NCBI GenBank assembly: GCA_947460875.1
Contig: CANHGR010000002.1
Coordinates: 1 to 64,000 of the forward strand
Reading direction: 5' to 3'
Origin: Sphingobacteriaceae bacterium
GTDB taxonomy: Bacteria > Bacteroidota > Bacteroidia > Sphingobacteriales > Sphingobacteriaceae
Length of the DNA stretch: 64,000 bases
Positions 57,673 to 61,931 of this stretch are shown here, one piece after another. The notes under the pieces are model-generated. The model made no database searches. It saw only the letters and a program-made list of their open reading frames with translations, and was not told the origin of the DNA. Every line of letters starts with the position of its first letter. Position 1 is the first letter of the stretch. Made by a program: the position numbers and the translations under genes.

Positions 57673-59829
57673 TTAAGAGTTTTGCGAATTTTCTCCCTTT
57701 AGACTCTGGGCGATTTTTTGAAGATCGCCGGATACATTGGCAATAAATTCGAGTTGTTCGGTTATCAGCTTAGATTCATGGCTGTCTTCAAAACTCGTTA
57801 AGTTTTCTTGAATGGTCGATTCATCTTTAAAAACATCATCTTCATTAGTTGAAACCAATTGTATAGAATCAATTAGTTGGTATAATGCTCGTTTTATAAG
57901 TTTTACATGAGACGGATCGATCTGACCGTTTTCGCTTTGACGCAAGTTAGCAAAGAGGCTTGCGATGTAGGAAGTGAAAATGTGGTTGAGCACTACAAAA
58001 TTCGAAACTTCCTTCACATTTTTTTGTTTGCTTTTCGGCTCCGATAACATCCGCTGAAAAGCCGCTGAGAGATTGGCAGTGCTTACATAAACTTCTTTCC
58101 TTGCAAGTTTATATTCGGTAATATTTAGATCCAGACCGGATAGTTTCTCGGCTGCTTTTTTTAAATAATAGTAATTGGCAATTAAGCTACTCCGCATATG
58201 ACCTTTGAGCTGCCTGTATTCCCATGCAGGGAAAATAAAATTACTCGCTACAAAAGCAATCACCGAGCCCAAGACGGTATCAAACATCCGTTCTTGAGCA
58301 ATATTTAAGGTGCCAAATCCAATAAAACTGAACATGATTAAAATGAAGGGTGTCAAGAATAGCACACTAACAACATAATTAAGCCTTTGGAAGCTGTAGG
58401 TGCCAATCATGAAAAACAGCATTAGGGCAAACCGAACAGTTTCATCCTTAATATAGAGAACGATGCAGGCACCGGCGATGCCCCCGATAACCGTTCCGAT
58501 CAGTCGCTGATAATTTCGCTCCTTGCTTAGACTAAAGCCTGGTTTCAATATAACTAGGATGGTAAGAAGTATCCAATAGCTATGATGACCAAGCTCTAAG
58601 GATTTGGAAATAAGGTAGCCGCTAAGGCAAACGATCGCAACTCGAAGCGCGTGCCTAAAAATGGTAGAATCAAAACTAAGATTCTCTCTAAATACTTTGA
58701 TGTCATAATCCTGGTGACTAATAAATTGTTCTACGTCGGCTTCGGTACGAACCGGCTCACTTAACAAGTGTTTTTGATTGTAATAGCTATAGATCTTCTG
58801 GATTCGGTTAACAATATTTCTTAGGTTAATTAGAATTTTTTTCAACACAAGAACATTTATACCATGCGTTTGCTCCACCTTATCTATTTCAGCTTTAAGC
58901 TTTCCTAGCTGTGGGATAAAATCATGCAACGGCAATGGTTGCTCATTACTGATAATATAATAGCTAAGGTTTTCTAGTTCTTCAGAGACATTTAAGATGA
59001 AATTCTTAAAGTGCGGAAGTATAGCTACATCAGAAAAGTTACGACGTATTTTTTTATAATCATAATGTGTGGCCATTGTCTGTTCAAATAGGTCGATAAT
59101 GTCCACAAAAATTAATATGAGTTGCCTGCCCGTTTCTGTCGATTCTTTAATAAAGAGACGACTTTTAAATAGGAGTTCTCGAACAGCGTCTTGTTGTTCA
59201 TTTACGACGATCTGCTGAGAAATCAGATCTTTGTAATTTTTGTCATAGTCTTTTTCTAGTCCATAAAAGTCAGCTTTGACGCTTAAATATTTTGAAACTT
59301 CTCGAATGCAGCCGCCAAGAGATTGCTGGGCGATTCTATAAGGGCGGATTTGCGAGACGGTCATGCTCAAAATAAAATACCAGAAGCCTCCTGCAAGAAG
59401 AAGCAATGAATTTGCAATATTTTCCGAAGTGCTAAGCTGTCGGTCGATCATCAAAATCATGACAAGAAGTGCCGCAGTTCCAATAGATGAAGCCCGGTTG
59501 CCATACACATTGAACATTGAAAAGAAGAAACAAAAAACAGGTATTTCGAGTGCCAGAAGAATAGGAGAATGATTGACGAATCCGGTAAAAAGCGCTGAAA
59601 TGGTTATAAAAAACAGACAAAATAAAATTCCGTTTCTCTTATGGGTTAAAGGCCCTGGATTGTCGGCAATACTAACGAATAATGCCCCCAAAGAAGCTAT
59701 AATACCCGTTTCAAGCCGGCCGTATTGAGCCATTACCAGAGAGGGTAAAAGAACCCCCATGGTTATTCTAATACCGTCAGAAAAGTATACACTAAAAATA
59801 AAAGTCTTTATTTCCCTGCTATGTTTCAT
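57673..59829 (-). CDS. FUSC/YccS-like inner-membrane protein
   Basis: A 718-residue protein with two clusters of transmembrane helices, at about residues 20-160 and 385-530, separated by a long coiled cytoplasmic region and followed by a second cytoplasmic region. The pattern is that of FUSC/YccS and aromatic-acid exporter-like (ArAE) proteins: LRVAIVCLSGYLIS, HHSYWILLTILVILKPGFSLSKERNYQRLIGTVIGGIAGA is the hallmark second cluster. The family may export aromatic or toxic compounds, but the substrate is unknown. It reads away from the noncoding-RNA region. Confidence 0.9.
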   Translation of the reverse strand: MKHSREIKTFIFSVYFSDGIRITMGVLLPSLVMAQYGRLETGIIASLGALFVSIADNPGPLTHKRNGILFCLFFITISALFTGFVNHSPILLALEIPVFCFFFSMFNVYGNRASSIGTAALLVMILMIDRQLSTSENIANSLLLLAGGFWYFILSMTVSQIRPYRIAQQSLGGCIREVSKYLSVKADFYGLEKDYDKNYKDLISQQIVVNEQQDAVRELLFKSRLFIKESTETGRQLILIFVDIIDLFEQTMATHYDYKKIRRNFSDVAILPHFKNFILNVSEELENLSYYIISNEQPLPLHDFIPQLGKLKAEIDKVEQTHGINVLVLKKILINLRNIVNRIQKIYSYYNQKHLLSEPVRTEADVEQFISHQDYDIKVFRENLSFDSTIFRHALRVAIVCLSGYLISKSLELGHHSYWILLTILVILKPGFSLSKERNYQRLIGTVIGGIAGACIVLYIKDETVRFALMLFFMIGTYSFQRLNYVVSVLFLTPFILIMFSFIGFGTLNIAQERMFDTVLGSVIAFVASNFIFPAWEYRQLKGHMRSSLIANYYYLKKAAEKLSGLDLNITEYKLARKEVYVSTANLSAAFQRMLSEPKSKQKNVKEVSNFVVLNHIFTSYIASLFANLRQSENGQIDPSHVKLIKRALYQLIDSIQLVSTNEDDVFKDESTIQENLTSFEDSHESKLITEQLEFIANVSGDLQKIAQSLKGENSQNS

Positions 59830-60157: not shown

Positions 60158-60189
60158 TTGACAGATAGCTGTTTTTGACACTATATTAG
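60158..60189 (+). promoter_or_regulatory. promoter of the structured RNA
   Basis: TTG at 60158-60160 and TATATTAG at 60182-60189 with a 21-base spacer; the second element differs from TAnnTTTG at one base. It also reads as TTGACA (60158-60163) with TATATT 18 bases further on. Transcription would start near 60195. Confidence 0.55.
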
Positions 60190-60194
60190 ATCAT

Positions 60195-60530
60195 CAAGAG
60201 TGACGTACTTTGACAGCCTGGGAGAATCCGCAAAACTAAAGCCGTAGGGCTTTGTGTCAAACGAGGGTTCAAAACCTGAAACAGGAAAGAAGATCGCAAG
60301 ATCTGATGCCCTAAATCAGGATCGCAAAGACAGGCAGGCTACTCCTATTGTTGTATTCTACGGAAGAGCGCAATAAAGAAGCAGGGTCACAGATATCAAT
60401 AGTCGAAAGGATATTGATCAACGGATCGGTCAGGACTACAGATGCACTTGGTACTTTCTGTAACTAAGGTTACATGAAAGAGAAACGGGGATCTCAATCG
60501 TAAGAGGAGGGTTCCCGTTTTGTTTTTTGT
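60195..60530 (+). ncRNA. candidate structured noncoding RNA upstream of phoH
   Basis: About 335 bases without a plausible open reading frame, between a promoter-like element and a strong terminator. Local helices include AAAGCC/GGCTTT (60238-60253, loop GTAG), TTTGACA/TGTCAAA (60209-60215 with 60255-60261), AGATC-GCAA-GATCT (60291-60304, a GNRA tetraloop), TTCT/AAGA (60356-60367) inside TATTG/CAATA (60346-60375), ATCAATA/TATTGAT (60395-60418), and an 11-pair stem with one bulge around TAAG (60454-60480). AGCCTG (60215-60220) could pair with CAGGCT (60335-60340), which would cross the second helix and form a pseudoknot. I do not recognise an Rfam family; RNase P, tmRNA and SRP signatures are not visible. 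It could also be a long 5' leader of phoH, but the terminator before phoH favours a separate transcript or attenuation. Confidence 0.6.
60483..60530 (+). terminator. intrinsic terminator of the structured RNA
   Basis: AAACGGG (60483-60489) pairs with CCCGTTT (60514-60520), with further pairing inside (CTC and GAG around 60493-60506), followed by a tract of T residues broken by one G. It is 48 bases before the phoH start. Confidence 0.87.
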
Positions 60531-60578
60531 GACGTTCTATAAAAATTGCTGCTGCAATTTTCTTAATTTTATTGCGCT

Positions 60579-61931
60579 ATGGTGAAGGAAAAAAATGCCA
60601 AGAACGGTGATCAGCGCAAGATTTTTGTATTAGATACCTCGGTTATTTTGTATGATCATAATGCGTTCCGAAATTTTCAGGAACATGACGTTGCAATTCC
60701 GATTCAGGTGCTCGAAGAGCTTGATAATTTCAAGAACGGTAACGAAACCCGAAATTTTGAAGCAAGAAGTTTCATTAGGCTGATAGAAGATATTTCCAAT
60801 AATAGCCTTCTTAATAGATGGCTTCCATTGAATGGGAGCACACATGGTAATTTTAAAGTTATTATGTACAAAAAGCCTGTATCTACTGATGCAGAGAGTA
60901 TTTTTGGTGAGGGAAAGTTTGACCATAGTATTTTAAATGCTGCCTTAAACTTACAGCAAGAGAACGCAGATAAAAAAGTGGTGTTAGTGTCGAAAGATAT
61001 TTGCCTTCGTTTAAAAGCAAAAGCTTTGAATCTTTTCGCCGAAGATTATGAAACCGGAAAAGTCAAAAATGTCGAAGAACTATATTCTGGTAAATCGATC
61101 ATCAAGAATGTATCTGACAAAATTCTAAATAGCCTTTCGAAAAAGCAGAAGGTATCTGCAGATCAGTTAGGCATTAGGGCAAGCGAAGGAAATCATTTTT
61201 ACGTATTGGAAGGTAGAAACAGATCACAGTCAGCATTTTTTAATACAGAAAGCGATGCCTTAGAGCAAGTTCCGGATCATGGCGTTTTTAATATTTTTCC
61301 AAAAAATCCGGAACAATCTTTTGCAATACATGCCTTACTGAATCCGGCAATCAAATTAGTAACTCTTCAAGGCAATGCAGGAACTGGAAAAACCCTTTTG
61401 GCATTAGCCAGCGCTTTGGAGCAGAGAAAGGATTATCGACAGATTTACATCACGCGACCGATTGTGCCACTTAGCAATAAAGATATCGGGTTTTTGCCCG
61501 GCGATATAAAATCTAAAGTGGACCCTTACATGGCGCCGATCTGGGATAACCTTAAATTTATCAGAGAGCAATTTGCAGATGATCCTAAAATGCAAGCAAA
61601 AATAGATGAGATGATCGACGCTGAGAAAATCGCGATAGCGCCCTTGGCATTTATAAGAGGAAGAACTCTCAATAGGATATTTTTTATAGTTGATGAAGCG
61701 CAGAATTTAACACCTCATGAGGTAAAAACAATCATTTCTAGGGCCGGAGAAAACACAAAAATTGTGTTTACAGGCGACATTTACCAGATTGATACGCCGT
61801 ACCTAGATGCAGAAAGCAACGGTCTTTCTTTTTTAATCGACAAAGCCAGAAACCATCCGCTTTATGCGCACATTACTTTACAAAAAGGAGAGAGGAGCGA
61901 GCTGGCAAATCTTGCTAACGAGCTGTTGTAA
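60579..61931 (+). CDS. phoH: PIN-PhoH fusion ATPase (YlaK-like)
   Basis: A 450-residue protein. The N-terminal PIN domain (FVLDTSVILYDHNA with its first acidic residue, then PIQVLEELDNFKNG, VVLVSKDICLRLKAKA) is a candidate RNase. The C-terminal PhoH domain has Walker A GNAGTGKTLLALA, the TRPIVPLSNKDIGFLPGDIKSKVDPYM block, FIRGRTLNRIFFIVDEAQNLTPHEVKTIISRAGE (Walker B) and FTGDIYQIDTPYLD. PIN-PhoH proteins such as PhoH2 couple RNA unwinding to cleavage. The structured RNA upstream, separated by a terminator, may be connected to its expression, but that is inference. Confidence 0.95.
   Translation: MVKEKNAKNGDQRKIFVLDTSVILYDHNAFRNFQEHDVAIPIQVLEELDNFKNGNETRNFEARSFIRLIEDISNNSLLNRWLPLNGSTHGNFKVIMYKKPVSTDAESIFGEGKFDHSILNAALNLQQENADKKVVLVSKDICLRLKAKALNLFAEDYETGKVKNVEELYSGKSIIKNVSDKILNSLSKKQKVSADQLGIRASEGNHFYVLEGRNRSQSAFFNTESDALEQVPDHGVFNIFPKNPEQSFAIHALLNPAIKLVTLQGNAGTGKTLLALASALEQRKDYRQIYITRPIVPLSNKDIGFLPGDIKSKVDPYMAPIWDNLKFIREQFADDPKMQAKIDEMIDAEKIAIAPLAFIRGRTLNRIFFIVDEAQNLTPHEVKTIISRAGENTKIVFTGDIYQIDTPYLDAESNGLSFLIDKARNHPLYAHITLQKGERSELANLANELL

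Follow-up and report, generated by a model that had tools for sequence, protein, structure and literature searches.

The window considered here is the whole 64,000-nucleotide stretch of contig CANHGR010000002.1 of a Sphingobacteriaceae bacterium. Close to its 3' end, ahead of a gene for a PIN-PhoH protein, lies a stretch (60158-60530) in which an earlier note, made from the letters only, had seen either a stand-alone structured RNA or an attenuator of phoH. The locus therefore raises the question of what this stretch encodes, whether it has relatives and whether it has anything to do with phoH. Coordinates are those of the window, and features lie on its forward strand unless otherwise stated. 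The 16S rRNA gene was not found in the 2.2-Mb, 26-contig assembly of the window's genome, which is therefore probably metagenome-assembled or incomplete.

Extent of the gene

The noncoding RNA gene was assigned to positions 60190-60528, with a transcribed part of about 335 nt that ends in a T-tract. The -35 element TTGACA (60158-60163) was read from the sequence and is also conserved in relatives; the -10/-7 element TATATTAG (60182-60189) has the form TAnnTTAG in relatives. The promoter carries 11 of 12 consensus letters, with an 18-nt spacer between TTGACA and TATATT(AG), and from these elements we infer a transcription start near 60193, a few bases 3' of the -10 element. At the other end is the terminator hairpin ACGGGGAUCUC-AAUC-GUAA-GAGG-AGGGUUCCCGU (60485-60518), directly followed by TTTTGTTTTTT; the T-tract of the intrinsic terminator (60516-60528), also read from the sequence, overlaps the last bases of the stem. 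A simple terminator scan did not pick up this hairpin, probably because of its internal mismatches.

The earlier description of the region as about 335 bases without a coding frame proved correct, with no ORF of at least 60 amino acids within 60158-60530. The longest sense-strand ORF of 55 homologous RNAs averaged 32.6 amino acids, against 34.4 after shuffling (40 in the window). The minimum free energy of 60192-60530 was -98.9 kcal/mol (z = -3.6), and none of 100 dinucleotide shuffles was equally stable. Together with the relatives and covariation given below, the promoter and the fold bear out the proposal of a structured RNA with its own promoter and terminator, and on sequence grounds positions 60190-60528 are almost certainly a stand-alone noncoding RNA gene belonging to a genuine RNA family.

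Homologues and distribution

No covariance model of Rfam 15 matched the region at E<=1 (cmscan), and none matched anywhere in the window at gathering cut-offs; this agrees with the earlier note, which did not recognise the region as RNase P, tmRNA, 6S or SRP RNA. Twelve homologous loci searched at E<=1 gave no match except one sub-threshold snoRNA at locus L149, outside the RNA and due to chance. Plain BLASTN with the region was run on 151 Sphingobacteriaceae genomes, the window's among them, and matched 24 (23 besides the window's), always at one of the two ends: at the 5' block that directly follows the promoter, or at the 3' hairpin. The neighbourhoods of these loci carry both RNA ends together.

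Two disjoint models were used for wider searches. R1, a sequence-only model of the promoter and 5' end, holds 28 sequences, and R3, a model of the 3' hairpins without the promoter, holds 27; the window is itself one of the sequences in each, and this applies to its scores of 58.4 bits (E 8.8e-16) with R1 and 67.5 bits (E 1.2e-8) with R3. R1 matched 168 of 301 Sphingobacteriaceae genomes, with E down to 4e-21. In 345 genomes of the class its matches outside the family were at chance level (E>=0.003); they were without the R3 domain and were discarded. R3 recovered the same Sphingobacteriaceae loci and, in addition, a match in one genome from another family. Among 25 sampled Sphingobacteriaceae genera, 13 had an R1 match, of which three were removed, so that the RNA was found in 10 (Mucilaginibacter and relatives); genus g7 was confirmed as a carrier (locus L202). 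The three rejected genera, g16, g17 and g21, had weak R1 matches without the R3 3' domain, at least two of which are tRNA promoters. Since genera such as g16 and g17 seem to be without the RNA, it would not be indispensable.

R3 also matched 18 of 148 genomes of the Cyclobacteriaceae (Algoriphagus and others), with E down to 5.5e-8 and with tandem copies present. These copies start with ATCAAGTGAGAGATAAAAGG, which follows a TACCTTAG-like box, and finish with CTTGACA, a UNCG hairpin and then a GNRA-tipped terminator. With laxer filters both ends look alike in two further families (L182 of f10; L180 and L193 of f46), and L183 (f3) and L190 (f13) are possible further members. Weak R3 matches at L151, L181, L185, L188 and L192, which resemble ordinary protein-gene terminators, were left out. 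Across 84,980 species, a search with a pattern restricted to the 5' end returned 24 loci, and in all 24 the R3 domain lay 250-330 nt downstream. The 5'-block pattern applied to 395 genomes of the phylum found three Cyclobacteriaceae genomes, and stray matches about equalled those of the reversed control.

Many culturable Mucilaginibacter, other Sphingobacteriaceae and Algoriphagus carry the RNA as one or two clear gene copies. Where paralogues stand in tandem, each has its own promoter and terminator; two diverged tandem copies of this kind were seen at L004/L025, L006, L007, L008, L014, L021, L119 and L125. Copies within one genome diverge more than the corresponding copies across genomes (e.g. 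L006, L014 and L021).

The genome searches proposed in the earlier note thus led to no known family and showed the region to be conserved. The extent is larger than that note held: this is a widespread RNA family, in several Bacteroidota families. The open literature, subscription papers and preprints being outside the scope of the search, held no paper on such an RNA in Sphingobacteriaceae or Cyclobacteriaceae. The family appears to be new, in that it has no relative among anything tested and whatever its mode of action; an earlier description elsewhere is possible.

Secondary structure and covariation

Three genus-level alignments (g22, Mucilaginibacter, and g14, perhaps Pedobacter) were folded separately and gave one common architecture, comprising helices P1, P2 and P3, a GNRA-hairpin domain, a UNCG-hairpin domain, a third domain of variable size and two 3' hairpins. 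P1 closes the RNA by pairing AUCAAG (60193-60198) with CUUGGU (60447-60452). Both strands are supported by the window fold and the covariation test, and the helix recurs in the three alignments. In relatives AUCAAG at the 5' end pairs with CUUGAU ahead of the last hairpins, and the variants AUAAG/CUUAU, UAUCAAU/AUUGAUG, GUCAAU/AUUGAC and CUAUCAAUU/AAUUGAUAG occur; in L180, from another family, the strands are CACCAAAC and GUUUGGUG. The P1 covariation score was 13.6, against 11.9 (sd 0.25) with permuted partners in a control that keeps relatedness in (0 of 200 permutations as high).

P2 lies just inside P1, where the alignments pair a GUAcuUUGAC block. In the window, 60205-60207 pair with 60437-60439 and 60210-60214 with 60429-60433, the 3' strand being GUCAG..UAC (60429-60439). 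Its covariation is weak, about 1.8 sd above the control when partners were permuted among all copies, since the 5' block hardly varies. P3 pairs GCCUG (60216-60220) with CAGGC (60331-60335), GUCUG with CAGAC in relatives; it was found in the window fold and in the three alignments, and the all-copy permutation result was weaker (12.38 against 12.09, sd 0.16, or about 1.8 sd). P1 (in the centroid) and P3 are present even when the window sequence is folded without constraints.

In domain I the hairpin AAAGCC-GUAG-GGCUUU (60238-60253) has a counterpart helix with double changes in the g22 alignment, and the GNRA hairpin AGAUC-GCAA-GAUCU (60291-60304) has GNRA counterparts in all three alignments. 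Domain II is a hairpin with a UACG cap (UUC-UACG-GAA, outer pairs UAUUG/CAAUA; 60346-60375), of UNCG type in all three. The domain III hairpin AUCAAUA/UAUUGAU (60392-60419), read from the sequence and the alignments, is probably the site at which Mucilaginibacter copies expand with extra hairpins, which were observed in part of that genus only. At L011, L012, L023, L024, L041, L048, L056 and L062 the Mucilaginibacter copies reach about 605 nt through extra small hairpins bearing GCNTTCGCA-like loops, which are inserted 3' of the UNCG domain. At L138 (Cyclobacteriaceae; reverse strand, about 2061-1661) a domain CAGGCAC-GAAGG...GAAACGGGTTACCGCAGAAGTGTC is repeated about three times; domain number therefore differs between species.

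The first 3' hairpin (60454-60480) has outer pairs CUUUC/GAAAG around GUAAC-UAAG-GUUAC, is covered by R3 and by covariation, and has a UNCG-type loop in relatives. The second is the terminator, whose stem covaries, with GC/AU exchanges at three positions, and whose tip AAUC-GNAA-GARG is near-invariant: a GNRA loop over a U-A and a C-G pair, then stacked A.G/A.R mismatches. For the R3 helices 60 double-change cells were counted, where shuffles gave 21.9 (none of 500 as high), and the pairing collapsed once the partners were slid. Covariation, which the earlier note had proposed to examine, thus stood out from shuffled or permuted controls both here and at P1.

All of the helices listed in that note exist in the sequence, and relatives have equivalents of AGATC-GCAA-GATCT, AGCCTG/CAGGC and the TAAG-capped stem. 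The TTTGACA/TGTCAAA helix is not conserved, its complement being present in 5 of 92 copies against 5.5 expected. The pseudoknot that AGCCTG and CAGGCT had been proposed to form with this helix is not conserved either; the TTTGAC block can instead pair near the 3' end, as P2.

This architecture bears on two other identities for the RNA. It might be a base-pairing sRNA acting in trans on mRNAs through conserved single-stranded stretches. Stand-alone genes with diverging tandem paralogues are typical of sRNA families, and some blocks are conserved in sequence, such as CAAGTGAGAGATAAAAGG in Cyclobacteriaceae; the conserved blocks, however, lie mostly in helices or hairpin tips, and a closed multidomain fold of 300-600 nt is unusual for such RNAs, so that we regard this identity as unlikely. 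A missing 6S-type RNA, binding RNA polymerase as a mimic of the open promoter, would have paired 5' and 3' ends as found here, and neither 6S (RF00013) nor 6S-Flavo (RF01685) was matched in 21 relatives, the 6S-Flavo search having been run without a positive control. The region itself has no match to a 6S model, however, and its multibranched form of about 250-650 nt with two extra 3' hairpins contrasts with the single rod of 6S RNA, about 180 nt long with a central bubble, which makes this identity improbable.

Relation to phoH

The PIN-PhoH protein gene (60579-61931, 450 amino acids) is a neighbour outside the RNA. It begins 48 bases from the RNA terminator in the window, and in 66 of 95 copies phoH follows the RNA on the same strand, about 0.35-2 kb from the promoter (some loci have short flanks); these facts are what would favour an attenuator or leader controlling phoH. 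Against this, phoH has a promoter element of its own, TAATTTTA (60564-60571), also outside the RNA and just upstream of the ATG. The corresponding motif TAnnTT[TA][AG] occurs within 45 bases of the phoH start in 40 of 59 homologues, against 11 in shuffles. The gap between RNA and phoH reaches about 1 kb in some genera; in L109, L128 and L129 phoH is divergent, upstream of the RNA; and copies such as L110, L120 and L122 sit elsewhere without phoH, in genomes that have a second copy. No phoH was found near the Cyclobacteriaceae copies. Tandem copies, moreover, are each complete. The frequent adjacency therefore reads as inherited synteny, phoH being divergent or absent elsewhere and having its own promoter, and the copies standing in tandem. 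On this comparison the RNA appears not to control phoH in cis, and the attenuator proposed in the earlier note is very improbable; nor does the RNA always stand ahead of phoH, as had been asked there.

The RNA is flanked on its 5' side by a divergent membrane protein gene (57673-59829), FusC-like by eye. The order of this gene pointing away, then the RNA and phoH both reading rightward, is kept in many relatives.

That the transcript is the mRNA of a small protein or a diverged known stable RNA (RNase P, tmRNA or SRP RNA) would suit its stable-RNA-type promoter and fitting length, but is very improbable given ORFs whose maximum length does not exceed that of shuffled sequences, compensatory changes, indels that are not triplets, and the empty Rfam searches (E<=1) of the window region and 12 homologous loci, bar the one chance snoRNA.

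The boxA-like block and proposed function

A stand-alone RNA with a closed fold remains the preferred reading, and one block near its 5' end resembles the boxA of rRNA transcripts. The boxA-like block GUACUUUGACA (60205-60215) lies at about +13, just 3' of the start, and contains the 5' strand of P2. It reads GTACTTTGACA in 57 of 92 copies and GTTCTTTAACA or GTTCTTTGAAT in others, the exact GTTCTTTAACA occurring in two. Sphingobacteriaceae rRNA operons have GTTCTTTAAAG/GTTCTTTGAAAG in their leaders and GTTCTTTGACATATTGGAAG in their spacers, with GTTCTTTGACA as the spacer 11-mer; GUACUUUGACA is one base away from the rRNA boxA of the same bacteria and shares 10 of 11 letters with the spacer boxA. 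The published gamma-proteobacterial boxA consensus is GYTCTTTAANA, and its authors left noncoding RNAs out of consideration (PMC5725501). At position 3, where this consensus has T, most copies carry A. A single altered base can abolish boxA function. The block is not present in the Cyclobacteriaceae copies.

In the RNA the block lies after the 5' strand of P1 and before that of P3; the partners of these two strands follow about 110-250 nt later in the window and further away in long copies. In rRNA, tethering through boxA is thought to aid the pairing of leader and trailer (PMC10250234). The block suggests that a stable RNA-protein scaffold acting in trans may be transcribed in the manner of rRNA; P2 pairing alone could account for the conservation of the block.

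The tRNA operons of related genera (L207 and L209, near an R1 match) have TTGACA or TTTTGC, then TATATTTG, then ATCAAA. The rRNA promoters of Sphingobacteriaceae have TTTGC/TACCTTTG and are unlike these. The likeness of the tRNA-operon promoters to that of the RNA hints that stable RNAs may share a class of promoter.

We propose that the RNA is transcribed like a stable RNA, from its own strong promoter to its own intrinsic terminator. In Sphingobacteriaceae the boxA-like block would recruit NusB/S10 to RNA polymerase and would shield the untranslated transcript from Rho. The 5' strand would be kept near the polymerase exit until the 3' strands of P1 and P2 emerge, as proposed for the leader-trailer helix of rRNA. 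The folded RNA would then bind proteins in trans, serving them as a scaffold or sink, with the invariant GNRA/tandem-purine tip of the terminator and the UNCG hairpins as probable protein sites and with hairpin number increased in some species. Hints of a scaffold or sink are the invariant tip, the UNCG hairpins, the enlarged Mucilaginibacter copies and the repeated domain of L138.

The whole explanation, of an undescribed stand-alone RNA family with rRNA-like transcription that serves in trans as a protein scaffold or sink and exerts no cis control over phoH, is given a probability of about 0.55. Scaffolding combined with antitermination as the actual mechanism falls somewhat short of even odds, its scaffold part resting on anatomy. 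Still more tentatively, this may be a new large structured noncoding RNA class across several Bacteroidota families in which, in Sphingobacteriaceae, transcription is by an rRNA-type boxA/Nus antitermination complex that also helps the far-apart 5' and 3' strands to come together. It is rare for a new class of large structured RNA to extend over several bacterial families; several such classes have proved to work as RNA-protein machines or to form ornate RNA assemblies. The presence of the RNA in many culturable bacteria makes deletion, pull-down and structural work feasible, and the family offers a concrete test of rRNA-type antitermination on other long untranslated RNAs.

Comparison with known systems

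OLE, ROOL, GOLLD and raiA are likewise long, stand-alone, multi-helix and ORF-less RNAs that covary; their hosts belong to other phyla, their architecture differs and the RNA described here has no Rfam match. Titrating RNAs of the CsrB/RsmZ type share with it a stand-alone gene, a variable number of hairpins and paralogues, but it differs from them in its closed 5'-3' architecture, and no repeated protein motif emerged across all copies. 6S RNA and 6S-Flavo are also stable RNAs with paired ends, from which the present RNA is set apart by being multibranched, longer and without a model match. Pedo-repair RNA (RF01715) and other Bacteroidetes motifs (PMC2864571) are structured RNA candidates from the same phylum, but they are in Rfam and match neither the window nor its homologues. 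Another parallel is to the rRNA boxA, the NusB-S10 site, and the leader-trailer helix. The 11-mers are near-identical (GTACTTTGACA against GTTCTTTGACA), both lie near the 5' end, and in both cases the block adjoins strands that pair with the 3' end; the differences are the position-3 A of most copies, the absence of the block in Cyclobacteriaceae, a NusB/S10 site that is predicted and a host transcript that is not rRNA. If the proposal is true, this would be a non-ribosomal stable RNA with the boxA/Nus system as part of its folding.
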